Under the pieces are notes generated by a model. The model was not told the origin of the DNA. It did no database searches and saw nothing but the letters and a program-made list of their open reading frames with translations. The position numbers and the translations under genes were made by a program. Of a DNA stretch of 35,841 bases, positions 10,455-21,008 are shown in pieces. This stretch comes from Leptotrichia sp. oral taxon 879 str. F0557 (GTDB lineage Bacteria > Fusobacteriota > Fusobacteriia > Fusobacteriales > Leptotrichiaceae). The stretch covers positions 1-35,841 of the forward strand of contig NZ_KI271338.1 in the NCBI RefSeq assembly GCF_000469385.1. Reading direction: 5' to 3'. Within the stretch, counting starts at the first letter, position 1. Each line of letters starts with the position of its first letter.

Positions 10455-11123
10455 TTAATCTCCTTTTTTATTCGCTAATTTTCCTAATTCATTTGAAACT
10501 TCCAGTTCCTTCACATCATATTTCTTCATATTTTCATACTCATAAGATTGATTAATTCCATTCATAAATACATCTCTATCCTTAATATCACCTGTCAAAT
10601 TCTCCTTCAAAAGAAATTTCAATTCCAAATCATTAACTACACTTCTTTTCATCGCCGATAAATAATCATTTCTACTGATATTTTGCCAATTCACACACAT
10701 TCCAAGACTTCTTATCAACATCTGATCCAGCCAAATCCTAGTCGTTCTTCCATTTCCCTCATAAAACGGATGCATTATATTCATCTCAACATATTTCTCA
10801 ATTATTTCCTCAAAATTATTTTCAGGCATTTTAGAAACTGTCTTTAAATTATCTTCAAGATACATCGCACGACAAAATACAGTATCGCCTTTCCGAATAT
10901 CATGTTCCCGTATTTTTCCTGCAGTTCCATAACATTCCTGAAACAAATACCGATGTATTTCCTTCAATCCTTCAAAAGTTCCCACTTGAATACTTTTTAA
11001 TATTCCATTATCAAATAACTCTTTTGCCCGTTTTTTACTCAAAAATTCTTCATCATCTTGTGAAACTAGCCTTTTTAAGATTTTGTCACTTTCGTTTTCC
11101 CAGTTGTCTTTATTATTTGCCAT
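10455..11123 (-). CDS. Fic-domain protein (class III-like AMP transferase)
   Basis: Fic enzymes transfer AMP or related groups to target proteins. The 222-aa protein contains GTFEGLKEIHRYLF (48-61), the target-docking flap region near KGDTVFCRAMYLEDNL (78-93) and the full catalytic motif HPFYEGNGR (118-126). A C-terminal SYEYEN (193-198) matches the [ST]xxxE[GN] inhibitory motif, placed after the catalytic core as in class III proteins such as Neisseria NmFic. It is therefore probably active and self-inhibited. AGGA precedes the ATG. The gene is 23 nt after the PH-like membrane gene and abuts the His-rich gene. Targets are unknown; no separate antitoxin is visible, consistent with class III. 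Confidence 0.9.
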   Translation of the reverse strand: MANNKDNWENESDKILKRLVSQDDEEFLSKKRAKELFDNGILKSIQVGTFEGLKEIHRYLFQECYGTAGKIREHDIRKGDTVFCRAMYLEDNLKTVSKMPENNFEEIIEKYVEMNIMHPFYEGNGRTTRIWLDQMLIRSLGMCVNWQNISRNDYLSAMKRSVVNDLELKFLLKENLTGDIKDRDVFMNGINQSYEYENMKKYDVKELEVSNELGKLANKKGD

Positions 11124-11146: not shown

Positions 11147-12055
11147 TTATTTCCATTTTTGAAAAACCATTGAATTATATAATGCCTCAAATAAAGGAAG
11201 TTTTACTACCGCTGTTGCCCTTTCAGAAAAAATTATTTCATCTTCTCTTGTTTTTATTTCTAATATTCCTCCAAAATTTCTAGAAACTTTTATTGACTGT
11301 AGTCTATTCCACGGATAAATTGCACCATCCACAAGTAATCCTTCTTTTTTTATTATCAACTTATTATTTGGATTTTCAAAAACTTTATGAGCTTCATTTT
11401 GAAGTCTGTCAAGAGGCACAACTTTATCTCTCATAGCTCGATAAACTCTATCTCTACGCTTTCCAAGAAAATCTCTTTTACGGTAGTCAGCTTTTATATC
11501 TTCTTCTGAACGTACGCCAAAAACTTCTTCCCCACCTGAATCTATAATTTCTTTGGAAACAGGGATTCTGTCAAGCAGATGATTTTTTAGAAGGCTTTGT
11601 ATAGTTTGTGATGGAAAAGCTATTTCAGATATTGTTCTCCAGTAATTCTTATTATTTCTATAAGCCAGGAAATCCCCTGAATATGTTGTTATTATAAAAT
11701 ATTCCAAAGATTTATAATCTATATCTTCATTTTCAACATTTGTAACAAAAGTATTTTCCTTCAATTCCACAGTTCTTATCCCATTAAACAATATCGTCAT
11801 CAATATCGAAAAACAGCAAAATACCGAAACTATCACACCAAGCATCGCCACTTGAAAAAAAGGCATCAAAATCCCAGAAATTCCACCAATAATAACCCAT
11901 TTTATTAAATTTCTATACGTAACTGTACTAAATTTTATAAACACTTTCTGATTGTCTGAAATATCTACACAGTTTACTATTTTTTCTTCTTTCCTCCCTG
12001 ATTCTGACTGCTCTCTCATTCTTTCCGTTTCTACGTAGCTTTTTTCATTTTGCAT
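11147..12055 (-). CDS. Uncharacterised membrane protein with possible PH/YcxB-like C-terminus
   Basis: I cannot assign a function to this 302-aa protein. A charged N-terminus is followed by two adjacent membrane helices (about 50-70 and 71-92), which form a hairpin, so both ends would be on the same side, probably cytoplasmic. The C-terminal part (about 220-300), with LIIKKEGLLVDGAIYPWNR followed by LQSIKVSRNFGGILEIKTR, has the strand pattern of bacterial PH-like or YcxB-like domains; this is a weak resemblance. AGGAGG precedes the ATG at good spacing. It is 30 nt after the methyltransferase gene and 23 nt before Fic, so it bridges the restriction-modification genes and the Fic gene in one possible transcript. 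Confidence 0.6.
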   Translation of the reverse strand: MQNEKSYVETERMREQSESGRKEEKIVNCVDISDNQKVFIKFSTVTYRNLIKWVIIGGISGILMPFFQVAMLGVIVSVFCCFSILMTILFNGIRTVELKENTFVTNVENEDIDYKSLEYFIITTYSGDFLAYRNNKNYWRTISEIAFPSQTIQSLLKNHLLDRIPVSKEIIDSGGEEVFGVRSEEDIKADYRKRDFLGKRRDRVYRAMRDKVVPLDRLQNEAHKVFENPNNKLIIKKEGLLVDGAIYPWNRLQSIKVSRNFGGILEIKTREDEIIFSERATAVVKLPLFEALYNSMVFQKWK

Positions 12056-12085: not shown

Positions 12086-14110
12086 TTATTTAAAATTCGT
12101 AATCAAAACTTCTCTTGTTATAGTATTTTTATTTTTTACCTGATAATTTGAATTATAATAATTAAAATCAAGATAGTTTACAAAAAAATTGTTTTTTGAG
12201 CACCAGTTCTTTAAAATTTTATTTTCATTCCCTTTATGTTCTATTACATTTGAAAGAGCGAATCTAATTGTTCTTTCATTACAATTTTCTAAAAATTTCA
12301 ATAAATCCTTTTCATCATTTTCAGTCCAGGAATTATTTTCATTATAACTTGCTTGACCCAATAAATACGGTGGATCAAGATAAAAAAAAGTGCTTTTACT
12401 GTCAATTTTATCTAAATTTATATCACGAAAATCCATATTCTTAAATTTTGTTTCAGCTAATTGTAAATTGTAAATAAAATTTTTTAGTTTTTTTCGTAAA
12501 TTAAAATTAAAATCCCTTTTTCCAACAGGTAAATTAAATTCATTTTTCTTATTAAATCTAATCTGATTATTAAAAGAATAAAATATTAACAATAAAAATA
12601 ATATTTCCTTTTTTTTATTATTATAATCTTCTCTTAATCTCAAAAATTTTTCTTTATTGTATTTTCCTAAACCATCATAAGAATTACATCCATAATATTC
12701 ATAGCCATTTTTAAAGGAGTTACTTAAACCATAATACTCTATTTTTTCTTCAATTTTTTTTTCCAGATTTTCGTAATTCTGTTTTTTCAAAAACTTTAGC
12801 AATTTTATTAATTCCTTATTTTTATCAATTCCAATTATCTTTTTTGCATTAAAATTTGCTCCTACATTAAAACCCCCACAAAAAATATCATAAAAAACAT
12901 CAATGTTTTTAGGCATTTTTTCAAAAATCTGTTTCAATAATTTAAATTTTCCACCTGTATAATTAAGTGGTGACTGAACCATATTTTTCTTTATATTTTC
13001 TAATATAAAAAGTTGGTTTTCTTCTGCTACTGTATTCTCTTCTGTTATATTATTTATAATATTTTCTTTACTATTTTTCTTATTTTTTCCAACTTTCTTT
13101 ACCCTACAAAAAAATACTCTTTCTGTATGATTTTTAATATTTGTTTTGCCGACTGTAAATGGACTAAAATCCTTTTCAAAAACTGTAACTTCTCCCTTAG
13201 ATTTTAATATTTCCAAAATTTCATTATCGTTAATTCTTGCATTTGAACGAGAATTTGCCTTTTGTTGAGTATTATTATATGAAAAAAGAATATATTTTGC
13301 TTCAATATTTTTAATCAACTCTTCTAAAGTCTGTTTAGCACTCGATAAACAATATTTACTTTTTATATGAGTTCTATCCATTTTTTTAGCAATTCCAAAA
13401 ACCTCAGGTTTACTATTTGTTGCTATATTTTCTAAAAAATGATAAGCATCACTATACTGCCTTGAATTATATGGCGGATCAATATACACAATATCTGCTT
13501 TAATTTTTTTTACCAATTCATTTGCATCCATACAAAAAATTTTATTGTTTTTATTATTTTCATTTTCAATTTGAGGAAATTTCAAAATCAATTCTTTTTC
13601 CAAATCTCCATTTTTTCTGTATGCATCATAATGTCCCACTGTATTAGCAATTCTATCAACAGCATATATCAAAGATGTTATTAATATTGCCTTCTCTCGT
13701 TTATTTATTTTTTTTTTCTCAAATAAATCATCAATATCATCTCTTATAAATCCAACTTTTTTTAAATTTTTCTCACTTAAATATGTATCTTTAAAATTTT
13801 CAGAATAATAATTGTTATTTTTAACAATCTTTTCATTATATTTTTTCATGATCTCAATCAATTTTTTTTCATCATATTCCAAATTTGAAAAAAAACATTC
13901 ATAAGAAAAATAATTACATCTTAGCAAATCATTCAGTACAACATCATACTTTTTATTAAAATAATCTGCTACAACTCCTGTTCCTGCAAATAAATCTAAA
14001 AATATCTTACAATTTTTTGTATTTTCCTGCACTATTTTTTCAATAAATTCTAATAATTTATATTTGCTTCCTAAGTATCTTCTATTATATATTTTAAATC
14101 TTTTCAACAT
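12086..14110 (-). CDS. Fused double D12-class adenine-N6 DNA methyltransferase (type IIS)
   Basis: This 674-aa protein holds two complete Dam-like (PF02086) modules. Module 1 has RRYLGSKYKLL (10-20, motif X), DLFAGTG (39-45, SAM binding) and DPPY (211-214, catalytic). A Lys/Asn-rich linker spans about 340-378. Module 2 has SPLNYTGGK (380-388), DIFCGGFNVG (408-417), RFNKKNEFNLPVGKR (518-532) and DPPY (579-582). The same architecture occurs in M.FokI, where each half methylates adenine on one strand of an asymmetric site. It protects host DNA from the neighbouring nuclease. The start overlaps the endonuclease end by 17 nt, with AGGAG three bases upstream of the ATG. The recognition sequence cannot be read from the protein. 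Confidence 0.93.
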   Translation of the reverse strand: MLKRFKIYNRRYLGSKYKLLEFIEKIVQENTKNCKIFLDLFAGTGVVADYFNKKYDVVLNDLLRCNYFSYECFFSNLEYDEKKLIEIMKKYNEKIVKNNNYYSENFKDTYLSEKNLKKVGFIRDDIDDLFEKKKINKREKAILITSLIYAVDRIANTVGHYDAYRKNGDLEKELILKFPQIENENNKNNKIFCMDANELVKKIKADIVYIDPPYNSRQYSDAYHFLENIATNSKPEVFGIAKKMDRTHIKSKYCLSSAKQTLEELIKNIEAKYILFSYNNTQQKANSRSNARINDNEILEILKSKGEVTVFEKDFSPFTVGKTNIKNHTERVFFCRVKKVGKNKKNSKENIINNITEENTVAEENQLFILENIKKNMVQSPLNYTGGKFKLLKQIFEKMPKNIDVFYDIFCGGFNVGANFNAKKIIGIDKNKELIKLLKFLKKQNYENLEKKIEEKIEYYGLSNSFKNGYEYYGCNSYDGLGKYNKEKFLRLREDYNNKKKEILFLLLIFYSFNNQIRFNKKNEFNLPVGKRDFNFNLRKKLKNFIYNLQLAETKFKNMDFRDINLDKIDSKSTFFYLDPPYLLGQASYNENNSWTENDEKDLLKFLENCNERTIRFALSNVIEHKGNENKILKNWCSKNNFFVNYLDFNYYNSNYQVKNKNTITREVLITNFK

Positions 14111-16178
14111 TTTCTCCTTTTACAGAGTTATTCCACGTGTCTTCGCACCAATTTCTGCCAATAAATTCTATTTTGCTGTAATTCTCAAAAACTTTATTTA
14201 TAAAATATTTATAATTTATATTATTTTCAAGCAAATAAACTATCTTATCTATTGTCAAAGAATAAATCTTTATTCCATTTGTATATTTTTCTCTTTTTTG
14301 CGTTGATTGAAGTCGAATTTGCGAAGTTGCTCTAAAAATATTAATTACATTCATATCCAATTCATTTGCAACAAAAAAAGTATATGTTTTTTTATTTCCT
14401 TCCATATTTTTTATTGTCAAATTCGTTGTATGGCGTATTACAGGCTCAAGTTCTCCTCTTTTTTGAGTATTTCTATCCATCAATGTCGCCTCAATCATAA
14501 CATCAAAATCTGAATATTCCGCAATTATGTCACCATCACCACCTGGAGCATGTGAAAGTGGAAATCCGTCTCCATCAAGTGACAATTTTAGACTTTTCTT
14601 TAAGTTAAACTCTTTATTAGAAATCCTATGCCAGGCAATTCCCAGCATATACTCAAAAATAGTGGGAATTTTTGCATTATCTGTAACTTCTTTTAAAATT
14701 TTTTCATCATTTTCCCTATTTTTAAACAAATTTAATATGGTACAGACTTTGTCATTTGAAAATCTTTCTTCCAATTTTTTCTCAAAATCTTCACCTATTT
14801 TGTCTGAAAAATGTTCAAAAATTGATATTTCTTTTGGAATATTATTTTCTTTTCTTAGTTTTTCTATAAAACTTTCAATTCTCTCTTCTGATAAATCAAA
14901 AATCTCTGAAAATGAAATATTTTTATGAAAATTATCTTTGACTACTTCATTATTTAACTTTTTCATACCTATAATTTCTGAAAAAATATTTTTACTCAAC
15001 CATTTATACGATAAATTTACCAGTCCATTCTCAAAACTAATTATTCCTGAAAGATTAAATGTTCTAATTGTCATATCATTGTATTCAAAAATCAAATCAT
15101 AGTTTTTAGAATCTCGAAATAATTCATAAAATAATTTATTGAACTCTTCAATATTTTTAGCTTCAAATATCGTTTCTTTATTCTCTTCAAAAAATTCCTT
15201 TAACGTCTTACAAAATTTAAATGGAACTTTATTATATCCGAAAGCCTTTTTTATACTCCCTTTTTTACTTATTTTTTCTAATTTTTTATATGTCTCCAAA
15301 TTTCTATTTTCAAAAAAACTTAAAGATACCTCATAAAATTCAAAATAATCTTCTATTTTGTCTTTACTTTTTCTATTTAAAAAATATTTTTCAAATTTTT
15401 CTTTTGAAATTCTATACTTTTCTTCAAATTTTATTTCTGAAGCTTCTTCCTGTATATATCTTGAAACATATTCACCAAAACTCATATTTTTACTTTTCAC
15501 TAATTTATATTTATCTAATGTTTCTCTATATTCTTCGTCTGTTTTACCAGCTCTGATTAAAGATAAAATTGTACAAAATTCCTTTTGTGGAATATCATCA
15601 AATTTACTAAGTAAATAAATTCCCATTCTAAATGGATAAATGTAATTTTCTCCTTCAGATTCATAAACTCTCAATTTCAATAATTGTCTTAAAAAAATAA
15701 TGTTGTCTGCTGATAAATTAAATAATTTTTCAATATCATCCTGTTTTGTATCTCCGTCTAACAACGCTTCTCCAACTTCTGTTATTTTTCTTTTTTCATC
15801 TACAAGTCCAATTTTTACAAGTGCATTTGTATAAGTTCTTCCTCTTTTTTTCTGTTCCAAAACAAAATATTCCAGCAAACTTCTATAATCTTTAAGTATT
15901 TTATTATTTTCATATCTCTTATCTTTATATTTTTCAAAAATACTTTCTTTAAATTTATCAGATATAAAAGAATAGTAATCCCCATAAAATGTATCATTTA
16001 TCAATCCACTTTTAGCAACATATTGATAAAAAATCATTTGTGAACTATTCTTCGTATCCCATTCTTCCAATTGTTCCGTAATTCCTTGCAACATTACTTT
16101 ATAATCATCTAATAAATTTTTTCTTCTAAAACTTGTATCCCCTAAATTCATTACAGAATCTTTATTCTGTAGCTTCAT
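14094..16178 (-). CDS. AlwI-like type IIS restriction endonuclease
   Basis: The C-terminal part of this 694-aa protein resembles the RE_AlwI family (PF09491). Residues 544-566 read APGGDGDIIAEY followed by FDVMIEATL, a PD-(D/E)xK variant with Asp550 and Glu563 as likely metal ligands, and ELEPVIRH (576-583) follows. The N-terminal two thirds would hold DNA recognition. Type IIS enzymes cut at a fixed distance from an asymmetric site. The frame begins at a TTG at 16199, but the ATG at 16176-16178 has a GGGAG 10 nt upstream and gives a 17-nt overlap with the SIR2 gene; an ATG at 16151 has no such site. Pairing with a double methyltransferase supports the call. No controller protein gene is visible. 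Confidence 0.85.
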   Translation of the reverse strand: MKLQNKDSVMNLGDTSFRRKNLLDDYKVMLQGITEQLEEWDTKNSSQMIFYQYVAKSGLINDTFYGDYYSFISDKFKESIFEKYKDKRYENNKILKDYRSLLEYFVLEQKKRGRTYTNALVKIGLVDEKRKITEVGEALLDGDTKQDDIEKLFNLSADNIIFLRQLLKLRVYESEGENYIYPFRMGIYLLSKFDDIPQKEFCTILSLIRAGKTDEEYRETLDKYKLVKSKNMSFGEYVSRYIQEEASEIKFEEKYRISKEKFEKYFLNRKSKDKIEDYFEFYEVSLSFFENRNLETYKKLEKISKKGSIKKAFGYNKVPFKFCKTLKEFFEENKETIFEAKNIEEFNKLFYELFRDSKNYDLIFEYNDMTIRTFNLSGIISFENGLVNLSYKWLSKNIFSEIIGMKKLNNEVVKDNFHKNISFSEIFDLSEERIESFIEKLRKENNIPKEISIFEHFSDKIGEDFEKKLEERFSNDKVCTILNLFKNRENDEKILKEVTDNAKIPTIFEYMLGIAWHRISNKEFNLKKSLKLSLDGDGFPLSHAPGGDGDIIAEYSDFDVMIEATLMDRNTQKRGELEPVIRHTTNLTIKNMEGNKKTYTFFVANELDMNVINIFRATSQIRLQSTQKREKYTNGIKIYSLTIDKIVYLLENNINYKYFINKVFENYSKIEFIGRNWCEDTWNNSVKGENVEKI

Positions 16179-19062
16179 TTTTTTCACTCTCCCATTCAAA
16201 ATAAGCTTCTACAATACTATTATTTGAAATATTATCATTATTCTTAATTTTAGAAAAAATATATTCTCTCACTAATTTTATTAATTTTTTATTATCTTTT
16301 TCTAAAAGATTTTTTATTCTTATTTTTGAAAATTTCTCTAACTCATTTTCTGTAAATTCAGAATAATCAAAATTTTCTTGATTTAATATGTATTTCCATA
16401 ATATCTCTGACTCATATTGTTCCAACGATTTAAAAAATTCCTTATTTTTATAGTTTTTTAATTTTTCTATAAAAGAAATCGGTAATCTATTATTTAAACC
16501 TGATTCTAATAAAAAATAAAAAATCTTTTCTTTTTCTGATGTATAGCTTATTAAATTATTTATATCTATATCTTTTTTTTGAAAAATTCTATCTAATTCT
16601 TCCAGTATTTTATCTTCTGTTTCTGGAATAAAGTCAATAAATTTTTGATTCAATAAAAAACTATAACTTTCTATATCTAATGTCTCTTTTATTTCTTTTA
16701 GTATTTCATTTTTTAACTCTTCAAAATATGTTTCATCTATTACTCTTAAAAAATAACCTTTTATTTTTAAATTATTTTTATTAATAAAGTTTTCTATTCT
16801 ATCATTTTTTGAAATTTTTGGTATTTCTTTTTCTTCAAAATAATATGTAATATAATCTAATAAATTTTTATCTATTCTATTCCTATCAATTGAAAAAATC
16901 TTTTCTAATACCTTATCAAAAAACTCTTTATTCAAATTTTGAAAATTTTTATAAATTATTATTCTAAAATTATCTACTATCCCTAAAACATAATTATTTT
17001 CAAAAAAGATATTGCTATTTTTATCGTTTAATATTATATCAACTAATTTTTGAAATTGGGATTCCATTAAATCTAATTTTGAAATAATTAGTAAAATACT
17101 TTCCAAAGTATCTATTTTTTGCATAAATTCTTCATCATTTTCTTCTATCCAATCAAATATATTTTTTAGTAATACAATTAACCTGTCCAAAATTTCTTCT
17201 TTGCATTTTAAATCCTTTATCATATATTCATTAAATAACTTTTTCAAATCACTGTAACTTAATTCTAACATCATAAAAAAATCAAAATATTCAAATTCTT
17301 CTAAAAGATTTCTATTTTTAAACATTTGATTTTTAACTTCAACATTCTTATTTGTTGTATACGACATAAGTAAAATTTCAATATATTTTTTCATAAATTC
17401 TGAATAAGGAGAAAACGAATTTCCAAATATTCCATTTAAAGAACAAAAATAGAATAAATCTCTTGACAAAATCATAGCTTTGTATAATGGAGGCGTCCCC
17501 CCCACATATGAAGTTCTTTTTTCTTTTCTTACTTTATCAAATAATCTATTTATTTCCTTATTTATAGCTTCTAAAGTTGAATATTCAAATATTTCATTAA
17601 AAAGTTCCGTTTCATATTTAAAATATTCAAAATACTTATCTTCCAAACTTTCTTCTATACTTTCAAAAGTTTTATTTAAATTTTCTTCTGTATGTGTTAT
17701 TTCGATAAATCCAATAATACTCAATATAAAGTTATCCCAAACTAATTTTTCATTTTTACTATTAAAATTTTCTTTTTCTTCTATCATACTTTTTATTATT
17801 TCTTTTGCTTTATTTATTTTTTTAAAAAATAAATATCCATATACAATTACATATTTGTTAATATTGTTATTTTCTTTGTATTCTTCTACTAAATTCTGAA
17901 AATTTTCGTAATCATAATCAAAAATTATTTTTAAAAATTTTTCTTCTACTTCTATTTTTTCTTCTAAAATATTTTTTTGTTCTTTTCTCTTAGGAGTAAT
18001 TCCTTTTTCAGAAAAAGGAATTAGTATTTCCTTCTCACTTCTATTTATATTTTGGACAACTTTTTTTATCCTTGATTTAAAAAGTATCTCTTCGTATTTT
18101 TCTATATCTTTAAATTCTAATTTTGTATTCAAAATTCTTTTCCAATCTTTATCTATATAAATCTCAGAAAATTTATCAAGTTTTTTCCAATTATGTTTTG
18201 TTAAATAATTTAAATTTTTATATATTTCAAAATTTTTTTCTTGCCTCACATTCTCTTTTTCATTATAAATATTTAATAAAAACTCAGTCAAAGTTTTTTC
18301 ATAATCATAATCAACTCTTCCTTTTTTATCTGCATACAAAATCTCATCATTATTTTTAGTTAAAAGCTTTAATGAAATTCTATTTATTTGCTCACCGTTT
18401 TCTTCTTCTTTATCATCTTTTTCCGTAAATTCAACAAGAAATGCTTTTCTAGTTTCTTCTTTTAAAATCTCTTTTATCCAATTCATAATTTGCTGTACAT
18501 TTGTATCATTGTATGAATAACCTATAAACAGTATTGTATTCGTTGTAAATAATCCTTTTATAAGAGTTGAAATTAATTGAAAATTCTTTTCGTAATTATC
18601 ATAATCACTTTTTTTCAAAACTATATTTTTATTTTTAAAATCGCCATGCATTTTTATAAGCATTTTATTTGAACTAGTATATGGTAAATCTTCATCCTTG
18701 CTTACAACCTGTAAATTTTTTATTTCATCTTCAATCAATGTATCATAATTAGTTGTAATTATATAAGTTAAATCCATTTTTTTTAATATTCTATGAACAG
18801 AATTAGGAACATATTTCCCTAAAAATCTTTTTTCTGCAATTTCATAATATTTTAAACTACCGTATCTTTCAAAAACTTCTTCTGGTATGGTTAAGTATTC
18901 TTTTGATGTAAATTCTTTTATTCCTCTATATTCTGCATAATCTTTTATTAATTCTTTCCAATCTGGCAATCCACTATTTTTAGAAACTCCTGCACCAACA
19001 AAAACTACTAACTTTCCTTTTTCTAATTCTTCAGCTAAAAATCTAATATCTTGTTCTAACAC
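16162..19062 (-). CDS. SIR2-domain NADase, defence-associated sirtuin-like
   Basis: The N-terminal about 280 residues form a SIR2_2 domain: GAGVSKNSGLPDW (23-35), TTNYDTLIE (103-111, Asn105), KMHGDF (137-142, His139) and FIGYSYNDTNV (about 179-189). Related domains in ThsA and DSR1/DSR2 hydrolyse NAD to stop phage-infected cells, and Asn105 and His139 are the expected catalytic pair. The remaining about 690 residues are Lys/Glu/Asn/Ile/Phe-rich, apparently helical, and unrecognised; they could sense phage. The 966-aa size is close to DSR2. The start is chosen as GTG at 19060-19062 (GGGAG five bases upstream, 14 nt after the ABC-F stop) over a GTG at 19116 inside that gene. The sequence is more AT-rich than the ABC-F gene. 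Confidence 0.85.
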   Translation of the reverse strand: MLEQDIRFLAEELEKGKLVVFVGAGVSKNSGLPDWKELIKDYAEYRGIKEFTSKEYLTIPEEVFERYGSLKYYEIAEKRFLGKYVPNSVHRILKKMDLTYIITTNYDTLIEDEIKNLQVVSKDEDLPYTSSNKMLIKMHGDFKNKNIVLKKSDYDNYEKNFQLISTLIKGLFTTNTILFIGYSYNDTNVQQIMNWIKEILKEETRKAFLVEFTEKDDKEEENGEQINRISLKLLTKNNDEILYADKKGRVDYDYEKTLTEFLLNIYNEKENVRQEKNFEIYKNLNYLTKHNWKKLDKFSEIYIDKDWKRILNTKLEFKDIEKYEEILFKSRIKKVVQNINRSEKEILIPFSEKGITPKRKEQKNILEEKIEVEEKFLKIIFDYDYENFQNLVEEYKENNNINKYVIVYGYLFFKKINKAKEIIKSMIEEKENFNSKNEKLVWDNFILSIIGFIEITHTEENLNKTFESIEESLEDKYFEYFKYETELFNEIFEYSTLEAINKEINRLFDKVRKEKRTSYVGGTPPLYKAMILSRDLFYFCSLNGIFGNSFSPYSEFMKKYIEILLMSYTTNKNVEVKNQMFKNRNLLEEFEYFDFFMMLELSYSDLKKLFNEYMIKDLKCKEEILDRLIVLLKNIFDWIEENDEEFMQKIDTLESILLIISKLDLMESQFQKLVDIILNDKNSNIFFENNYVLGIVDNFRIIIYKNFQNLNKEFFDKVLEKIFSIDRNRIDKNLLDYITYYFEEKEIPKISKNDRIENFINKNNLKIKGYFLRVIDETYFEELKNEILKEIKETLDIESYSFLLNQKFIDFIPETEDKILEELDRIFQKKDIDINNLISYTSEKEKIFYFLLESGLNNRLPISFIEKLKNYKNKEFFKSLEQYESEILWKYILNQENFDYSEFTENELEKFSKIRIKNLLEKDNKKLIKLVREYIFSKIKNNDNISNNSIVEAYFEWESEKNEATE

Positions 19063-19076
19063 TTTTTCTCCCTTCT

Positions 19077-21008
19077 CTATTCCAAACTCTCCAACTCCCC
19101 ACTCTTCAAATCCCACTCTTCCATCTTCTCCATCTCTTCTTCTTCCAGCTTGTCCAACTTTTCCTGCACTTCCATCAGTTTTTCCATATTGTTTTCTTTT
19201 CCAGCCTTTTCGTATTCAGTGTTTAAATTTTCTCTCATTTCTGTGATTTTTTCCATTTCCTTTTCCAGTTTTTCAATATCACGTTTCAATTTTGCGATTT
19301 TTCTTGACTGTTCCTTCTGCTCCTGATATGAAAGTTTTTTCTCTTCTTTCGTTTCAATGTCTGTTCCTTGAGAAGCTGTTTTTGCTGTTTTTAGGCTTTC
19401 TTTATAGTCTTCGTAATTTCCTTTGAATTTTGTAAGTCCGTTTTCGTCAAGGCAGTAAATTGTGTTGCAGATTGTATCTAAAAAGTGTCGGTTGTGGGAA
19501 ACGACTAGCATTGTTCCGTCAAAATCCTCCAAAGCATCCTCCAGCACTTCGATGGAATAAACATCCAGATGGTTTGTCGGCTCATCTAAAATCAGAAAGT
19601 TGGCTTTTTCCATATAAAGTTTCAAAAATGCCACACGAACTCTTTCTCCACCACTTAGCATACTGATTTTTTTCTGCACATCATCTCCTGAAAACAAAAA
19701 TCCACCTGCGAGTGTTCGCAAATATTCTTCTGTCAAGTCAAGTGAATTGTTTATTTCCTGTAAAATCGTATTTTCTCGTGAAAATTCATGATGATTCTGA
19801 TCATAATATCCGATTTTTAGCCTTGTTCCAAACTCAATTTCCCCTGTATCCTTCAGCAACTTATCCAAGAGTATTTTTAGAAGTGTAGATTTTCCAATCC
19901 CATTTTTTCCAATAATTCCAACTCTTTCCCCACGGAAAAGTTCAAAATTTATATTATTCAAAACTTTTTTCCCATCAAAGCTTTTAGACAAGTTTCTAAC
20001 TTTCAACACATTTTCCCCGCTCATTTTAGCCGCTTCAAATTTTAGCCTCATTCTTTGCGGATTAAATACAGGATCTTCCATTCTCTCGATTCTATCCAGT
20101 ATTTTTTGTCGTCCTTTCGCCTGCCTTGCCTTTATTCCAGCTCGAAATCTGTCAATGTATTCCTCCATTTTCTTAATTTTTTCCTGCTCCTTCTCATATC
20201 GCTTGATTTCCCCCTTCAAAATCATCTCTTTTTGAAGAATAAACGACGAAAAGTTTCCATCATACTTGTGTAATTTTTTATTTTCCAACTCAAAAATTTT
20301 TGTACAGACATTATCCAAAAATATTCTATCATGAGAAACAAGCAAAAACGCCTTATTATACTTTTTCAAATAATCCTCAAGCCACTCAATCGAAATCAAG
20401 TCCAGATGGTTTGTCGGCTCGTCCAGAATCAGCAAGTCAGGTTCAGACAAAAGAAGTTTTGCAAGCGAAACACGTGTTCTTTCCCCACCGCTCAAATCCT
20501 GCAATAACAAATTCTCATATTCCCCAGTAAGTTCAAGCCCTGTAAGCACCTGCTTAATCTTGTATTCAATCTCATAACCATTTTTTGCCTCATAAATAGA
20601 AGAAAGTTCAGCAGATTTGTTAATCAGCTTTTCCATTTCATCCTCGTTCGCTGTTCCTAAAAGCATATTAACCTTCTGAATCTCATCCCAGATTTTTCTC
20701 TCTTCCTCAAAAATAGTCATCATTTCCTCGTAAATCGTATTTTTTTCATCTGAAAACTCTGTATTCTGCGACAAATACCCAATTTTTGTAGCCCCACTTT
20801 TCACAATTTCCCCAAACTCATTAAGATTATTCTCATTCCCATCAATCCCCTCTTCCCCCAAAAGCATCCTGATAATTGTAGACTTCCCAGCCCCATTTAC
20901 CCCCACAAGCCCAATCTTATCTCTTTCTTCAATCGTAAAATTAACATCTCTCAAAATATATTCCCCCGCAAATTGCTTATATACCTTGTTAAACTGAACT
21001 AAACTCAT
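19077..21008 (-). CDS. ABC-F family ATPase (ribosome-associated type)
   Basis: ABC-F proteins have two ATPase domains without membrane helices and act on the ribosome, as translation factors or antibiotic-protection proteins. In this 643-aa protein domain 1 has GVNGAGKST (36-44), LSGGERTR and LLILDEPTNHLD. A basic helical linker follows, with YIDRFRAGIKARQAKGRQ. Domain 2 has GKNGIGKST, LSGGERVR and LILDEPTNHLD. A Glu/Lys coiled coil fills about 550-640. The C-terminal coiled coil and linker resemble YdiF-type housekeeping members more than resistance types, but this is uncertain. The ATG follows AAAGGAAA, and a strong promoter lies at 21070-21098. It is the first gene of a possible operon with the SIR2 and R-M genes. 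Confidence 0.93.
   Translation of the reverse strand: MSLVQFNKVYKQFAGEYILRDVNFTIEERDKIGLVGVNGAGKSTIIRMLLGEEGIDGNENNLNEFGEIVKSGATKIGYLSQNTEFSDEKNTIYEEMMTIFEEERKIWDEIQKVNMLLGTANEDEMEKLINKSAELSSIYEAKNGYEIEYKIKQVLTGLELTGEYENLLLQDLSGGERTRVSLAKLLLSEPDLLILDEPTNHLDLISIEWLEDYLKKYNKAFLLVSHDRIFLDNVCTKIFELENKKLHKYDGNFSSFILQKEMILKGEIKRYEKEQEKIKKMEEYIDRFRAGIKARQAKGRQKILDRIERMEDPVFNPQRMRLKFEAAKMSGENVLKVRNLSKSFDGKKVLNNINFELFRGERVGIIGKNGIGKSTLLKILLDKLLKDTGEIEFGTRLKIGYYDQNHHEFSRENTILQEINNSLDLTEEYLRTLAGGFLFSGDDVQKKISMLSGGERVRVAFLKLYMEKANFLILDEPTNHLDVYSIEVLEDALEDFDGTMLVVSHNRHFLDTICNTIYCLDENGLTKFKGNYEDYKESLKTAKTASQGTDIETKEEKKLSYQEQKEQSRKIAKLKRDIEKLEKEMEKITEMRENLNTEYEKAGKENNMEKLMEVQEKLDKLEEEEMEKMEEWDLKSGELESLE

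Follow-up and report, generated by a model that had tools for sequence, protein, structure and literature searches.

A gene for a SIR2-domain protein is followed by a restriction endonuclease gene and a methyltransferase gene on the minus strand of the window, by which we mean the whole stretch of 35,841 nucleotides analyzed here (Leptotrichia sp. oral taxon 879 str. F0557, contig NZ_KI271338.1, positions 1 to 35,841). SIR2 effectors and restriction-modification (R-M) are known as separate phage defenses, which raises the question of whether the three genes act as one system and, if so, what kind of SIR2 protein has been joined to the R-M pair. A first-pass annotation had proposed a fixed unit of SIR2 and type IIS R-M, in which NAD depletion could back up failed restriction. 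The coordinates of the features discussed below are collected in Table 1.

Table 1. Positions in the window of the cassette genes, their domains and junctions, and the flanking genes
Feature	Coordinates	Strand	Remarks
ABC-F ATPase gene, left flank of the insertion site	19077..21008	(-)	present in 33/33 genomes of the family
Whole inserted cassette	12089..19076	(-)	missing in related genomes; empty sites L046, L047, L050
SIR2 gene, DSR2-like	16162..19062	(-)	966 aa; GTG start 19062, stop 16162
SIR2 NADase domain, predicted	18253..19062	(-)	residues 1-270
Predicted catalytic N105	18748-18750	(-)	invariant in 12 relatives; aligned with the DSR2 TNYD and KVHGDF motifs
Predicted catalytic H139	18646-18648	(-)	invariant in 12 relatives; aligned with the DSR2 TNYD and KVHGDF motifs
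C-terminal alpha-helical domain, predicted phage sensor	16165..18252	(-)	residues 271-966, ~700 aa
SIR2 stop/endonuclease start overlap	16162..16178	(-)	17 nt, atgaagctacagaataa
AlwI-family restriction endonuclease gene	14094..16178	(-)	694 aa; ATG start 16178
Endonuclease stop/methyltransferase start overlap	14094..14110	(-)	17 nt, atgttgaaaagatttaa
Fused double D12 adenine methyltransferase gene	12086..14110	(-)	674 aa; ATG start 14110
Right flank: 302-aa protein, no Pfam match, then Fic gene	11147..12055	(-)	directly after the ABC-F gene in empty sites

Organization and mobility of the cassette

On the minus strand, the order of genes is ABC-F, SIR2, AlwI-family endonuclease and fused double D12 methyltransferase, and the genes, strands and domains were as first described (SIR2_2/SIR2, a full RE_AlwI profile and two MethyltransfD12 stretches). 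The GTG start codon of the SIR2 gene lies 14 nt past the ABC-F stop codon and is preceded by the sequence AAGGGAG. The endonuclease matched PF09491 (RE_AlwI) over the whole profile with an E value of 1.6e-41 and the PADLOC model REase_II with 7e-109, and its C-terminal part matched the small subunit of R.BspD6I (2p14, 2e-5); it is assigned to the AlwI family and predicted to be a type IIS enzyme. The methyltransferase matched PF02086 (MethyltransfD12) in two stretches (9e-60) and PADLOC MTase_II (5e-192). Its first half spans approximately residues 1 to 350, and its second half, residues 371 to 674, is Dam-like, matching TIGR00571 as well as Dam structures. The features of a type IIS R-M system, namely, the whole RE_AlwI profile and two D12 domains, are therefore present by sequence.

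The 17-nt overlap that had been pointed out at both junctions is indeed found in the window, but it did not hold as a conserved signature and was ruled out as such because the endonuclease/methyltransferase junction differs among relatives. The overlap between the SIR2 and endonuclease genes is kept at 17 nt in two related genomes (G010 and G013), with no indel, whereas the endonuclease/methyltransferase junction measures 14 nt in G013 and is replaced by an in-frame fusion, a 1337-aa open reading frame, in G010. As an additional observation on the G010 locus (L042, 7852-11932), a 4-nt deletion produces the fused frame and a further deletion of 5 nt is located near the endonuclease start. Along the coding strand of the window, from approximately position 19700 to 12000, no terminator-like sites were seen, and promoter-like matches were no higher than in shuffled sequence; a single transcript across the cassette is therefore plausible.

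The cassette had also been described as more AT-rich than the adjacent ABC-F gene, hinting at transfer, and the analysis confirmed the composition and lent support to transfer. The GC content of the three cassette genes is 19 to 26%, versus 35 to 37% for the ABC-F gene. Clean empty sites exist in genomes of the same genus (L046, L047, and L050), in which a short spacer separates the ABC-F stop codon from TAAATAAAAATACAAAAAACTTAGGAGG, a sequence that in the window corresponds to the end of the methyltransferase gene and what follows it. Because the empty sites carry the same two junctions, the insert consists of the three genes and nothing else. A NmFic-type Fic protein is encoded past the cassette (10455-11123 in the window), and related genomes have it at the corresponding position whether or not they carry the cassette.

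The cassette is located behind the ABC-F gene in the window genome (G000), in G010 and in G013, and in a decayed version in G016, where the SIR2 gene is frameshifted, the methyltransferase is gone and little is left of the endonuclease. The three intact copies exhibit a mosaic of similarity along their length. Between G010 and G013, the SIR2 genes share 98.7% DNA identity, versus just 79.9% for the adjacent ABC-F genes. Overall, these results support a mobile cassette acquired by transfer. Its genes are under purifying selection, including that for SIR2, with dN/dS values of approximately 0.19 for SIR2, 0.12 for the endonuclease and 0.13 for the methyltransferase. A different type II R-M system, with a D12 and an N6_N4 methyltransferase, is harbored at the ABC-F site by another genome of the family (G012; L045, 13149-14957), which indicates that the site behind the ABC-F gene is a hot spot.

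Relationship of the SIR2 protein to DSR2

The SIR2 domain of the first cassette protein was confirmed by Pfam (PF13289, SIR2_2, 1.5e-23; PF02146, SIR2, also matched), and the protein could be assigned more specifically than it had been, as a relative of DSR2. With PADLOC, the models for ThsA, Dsr1 and other SIR2 proteins matched its N-terminal domain only. When a profile built from the 12-member family was compared with the PDB, Bacillus DSR2 was matched over its full length (5.6e-104), and the same profile matched the DSR2 construct 8ygk, which comprises the C-terminal part only, with an E value of 8e-24. An AlphaFold model of the window protein (pLDDT 81, pTM 0.69) also resembled DSR2, both by Foldseek (1.1e-24) and by VIA-align, in which 839 residues were aligned to 8wyb_C with a Z score of 30.7 and an rmsd of 5.6; chains containing only the C-terminal domain of DSR2 gave Z scores of 17 to 18 over approximately 600 residues. 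In a single-sequence search, the window protein reached DSR2 through its SIR2 domain only (2e-37, residues 6 to 212), so that the link between its C-terminal domain and DSR2 rests on intermediates and on the fold. The predicted catalytic residues N105 and H139 align to N133 and H171 of DSR2, both of which are required for NAD+ cleavage (PMC11087589). Judged by profile and predicted fold, the window protein thus appears to be a full-length relative of DSR2 in which both catalytic residues are retained.

Since the protein is related to DSR2, it may itself sense phage and could do so on its own. Among the proteins of the window, Cetobacterium and two Fusobacterium-type relatives, the C-terminal domain shares 32 to 35% identity, versus 49 to 57% for the SIR2 domain. 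When the window C-terminal domain was used as the sole query, no viral relatives were found.

Long-SIR2 genes beside restriction-modification genes

Relatives of the SIR2 protein were collected by SIR2 homology alone, ignoring their neighbors. By manual count, an R-M gene lies within one gene of SIR2 in 14 of approximately 31 informative long-SIR2 loci, and the partners comprise AlwI, FokI, other type II, MmeI, type III, type ISP and type I enzymes. All three further full-length relatives from Fusobacteriota are R-M-adjacent: a Cetobacterium protein adjoins a type III Mod/Res pair (L067), one from Fusobacterium mortiferum adjoins a type ISP enzyme (L068), and a third adjoins an MmeI enzyme (L069). 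Other type II partners are FokI with two D12 methyltransferases (L077), a type II pair (L079), MmeI (L080, and L081 in divergent orientation) and a type II methyltransferase (L086). As for type I partners, HsdR lies near the SIR2 gene in L085, one gene away, and in L150; two further loci are type I operons with a SIR2 relative (L187 and L188), and in L152 the SIR2 gene is located between HsdS and HsdR of a type I operon and encodes a near-orthologue of DSR2 (1331 bits). The junctions are mostly same strand and operon-like, with overlaps or gaps of 3, 12, 17, 30, 37 and 60 nt.

Recurrent linkage of SIR2 and R-M genes in unrelated genomes, which the first-pass annotation had named as the test of its proposal, was thus found, and across many R-M types. 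The proposed fixed unit of SIR2 and type IIS R-M did not survive, given that the SIR2 lineage swaps its type of R-M partner. AlwI-family endonucleases also occur without SIR2, in G003, in G017 and at a second locus of G010, which makes the relation one-sided.

About half of the long-SIR2 loci have no R-M neighbor. These include L059, L076, L082, L083, L088, L114 to L117, L149, L151 and L189, among which L059 and L114 to L117 are stand-alone relatives, as well as the viral contigs L168 to L174. In L078, a C5 methyltransferase lies 3.4 kb from the long-SIR2 gene.

Pairing was also evaluated with an automated test in which an R-M gene had to lie within 700 nt of SIR2, with a reference set that lacked FokI and some HsdS proteins, and in which other genes of the same loci, at least 4 kb from SIR2, served as background. 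R-M genes were adjacent in 10 of 25 long-SIR2 loci, versus 5 of 133 background genes (p = 3e-6). Mapping of R-M adjacency onto the SIR2 tree required 6 changes, versus 13 after shuffling, and none of 500 shuffles gave a number as low, a signal to which near-copies contribute. Among short-SIR2 controls, 2 of 11 had R-M genes beside them, both belonging to one lineage (L160 and L161). The comparison of all long with short SIR2 genes (12/27 versus 2/11) was not significant by itself (p = 0.16), and a comparison of two clades, with a p value of 8e-5, was made post hoc; fairer evaluations are the tree shuffle and the test against local background. Overall, these results suggest that there is a reason for the pairing of SIR2 and R-M genes.

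Several other arrangements of SIR2 genes were observed. In L160 and L161, a short SIR2 protein of 477 aa, from a separate SIR2 lineage, adjoins the type I protein HsdR. An archaeal SIR2 gene, from Methanocalculus, overlaps an HsdM-like gene by a few nucleotides (L090, 5582-7549), and in the Fusobacterium mortiferum locus the SIR2 stop overlaps by 4 nt with the gene for a 1202-aa protein that neither Pfam nor PADLOC matched (L068, 6019-9627). Long-SIR2 genes are carried by the viral contigs L168 and L171 to L174, and integrase-like genes adjoin them in L171 to L174; in another viral contig, the start of a long-SIR2 gene shares 4 nt with the frame for a 240-aa piece of a type ISP enzyme (L175, 7231-10655). 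A search of phages returned just three SIR2-domain matches, and a search of plasmids with the C-terminal domains of two Bacillota relatives returned none.

Possible modes of action and known systems

The reading that we favor, and to which we give about an even chance, is a mobile three-gene cassette with two layers of defense: restriction would act first, and a phage protein would set off DSR2-type NAD depletion as the second. The AlwI-type endonuclease and the double adenine methyltransferase would form a type IIS R-M system, cutting unmodified incoming DNA, and the DSR2-type NADase would be off by default. If a phage survived restriction, the helical C-terminal domain would bind a phage protein (for the only DSR2 that has been studied, this is the tail tube protein), and the SIR2 domain so triggered would degrade NAD+ and halt the cell ahead of phage release. 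The gene overlaps would hold the two layers together, plausibly with co-expression of the cassette. The lack of homology among the partners and the faster divergence of the C-terminal domain relative to the SIR2 domain fit an autonomous phage sensor better than a docking surface shared with R-M enzymes; rapid change in the C-terminal part is compatible with other triggers too. What counts against the layered model is that so many long-SIR2 loci have no R-M neighbor and that the C-terminal link to DSR2 runs through intermediates and fold.

The SIR2 protein might instead guard the R-M system as PrrC does, which we consider possible but doubtful. In such an arrangement, the R-M enzyme would hold SIR2 inactive, or SIR2 would sense the inhibition or the products of R-M, and a phage anti-restriction protein would release NAD depletion. 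There is a precedent in prrC, which lies inside a type IC locus, its product being activated upon inhibition of EcoPrrI (PMC12707154), and a coupling of immunity with suicide has been proposed in general terms (PMC3506569). The near-orthologue of DSR2 between hsdS and hsdR is the strongest case for a guard, and the clustering of R-M adjacency on the SIR2 tree is also in its favor. However, AlwI, FokI, MmeI, type III, ISP and type I partners offer no single shared surface (they could still have a signal from DNA ends or methylation in common), and half of the SIR2 family has no R-M gene beside it.

Also no more than tentative is the idea of a dispersed two-layer class, formed by DSR2-type NADases that dock onto whichever R-M operon is present (types I, IIS, IIL, III and ISP) and answer a common signal of R-M failure, for example, phage DNA or protein that has survived restriction. 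If true, this class would be the NAD-depleting counterpart of PrrC across many R-M types.

It is unlikely, in our judgment, that the genes are chance neighbors that gathered passively in defense islands or hot spots and were later moved as a block. The ABC-F site is such a hot spot, having received another type II R-M system in G012, one short-SIR2 lineage adjoins type I genes too, and some relatives, such as that of Cetobacterium (L067), sit within wider defense islands. Nevertheless, adjacency is well above the local background, the junctions are mostly operon-like and on the same strand, the R-M label is phylogenetically clustered, and the insert contains three genes only. Finally, a purely selfish linkage, in which the two parts do not cooperate functionally and R-M addiction (loss kills via unmethylated sites) stabilizes a costly NADase, or the NADase stabilizes the R-M genes, is very improbable: R-M modules can behave as addiction modules, as reviewed in PMC12707154, and the decaying G016 copy would fit, but such linkage alone leaves unexplained both the purifying selection on SIR2 and the clustering of R-M on the SIR2 tree.

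The loci turn the general idea of 2012, that immunity genes are coupled to suicide genes, into concrete cases that can be tested, namely, DSR2-type NADases in unrelated R-M operons. As DSR2-type activation is structurally understood, they permit a direct test of whether back-up abortive-infection effectors sense phage or the failure of restriction. Annotating a "SIR2 family protein" and an "R-M" system separately may overlook one system.

Among known systems, Thoeris (ThsA/ThsB) was considered and rejected. The neighbors of the SIR2 gene encode the endonuclease, the methyltransferase, ABC-F, the 302-aa protein and Fic, with no TIR-domain ThsB, and the match to ThsA (~480 aa) covers only the SIR2 domain of the 966-aa protein, a wrong architecture. 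The closest likeness is to DSR2 of Bacillus subtilis (PDB 8wyb, 8k98 and 8z18), with which the window protein shares a SIR2 NADase domain with catalytic N and H residues, a helical C-terminal domain of ~700 aa, a total length of ~1000 aa and a full-length fold match. DSR2, however, has been studied as a single gene, whereas its window relative heads an R-M cassette of three genes and has a C-terminal domain too diverged for a single-sequence match. With PrrC in EcoPrrI, the shared trait is an effector gene inside an R-M locus, as seen in the window cassette and in L152; the anticodon nuclease PrrC is linked to type IC, whereas the DSR2-like proteins are predicted NADases found with many R-M types. 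The R-M part of the cassette resembles type IIS AlwI and FokI systems in its AlwI-profile endonuclease and double D12 methyltransferase, as does L077 with its FokI and two D12 methyltransferases, and differs from them in being accompanied by a DSR2-like gene. In Streptococcus thermophilus, SIR2/HerA is likewise located among R-M systems of a defense island (PMC11514479), but it belongs to another SIR2 family and acts with HerA, and Pfam searches of the window genes gave no HerA-like neighbor.

Toxin-like Sir2 genes in type I and type III R-M loci were described by Makarova et al. in 2012, together with the coupling hypothesis (PMC3506569), without the DSR2 family being resolved there. No published DSR2-family genes within R-M operons, type II and ISP included, were found in a literature search that covered mostly open-access papers. 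That Sir2 genes occur in R-M loci of these two types was therefore already known, and what looks new here is the DSR2 identity of the proteins, their pairing with type IIS, IIL (MmeI) and ISP systems, and the count of such loci.
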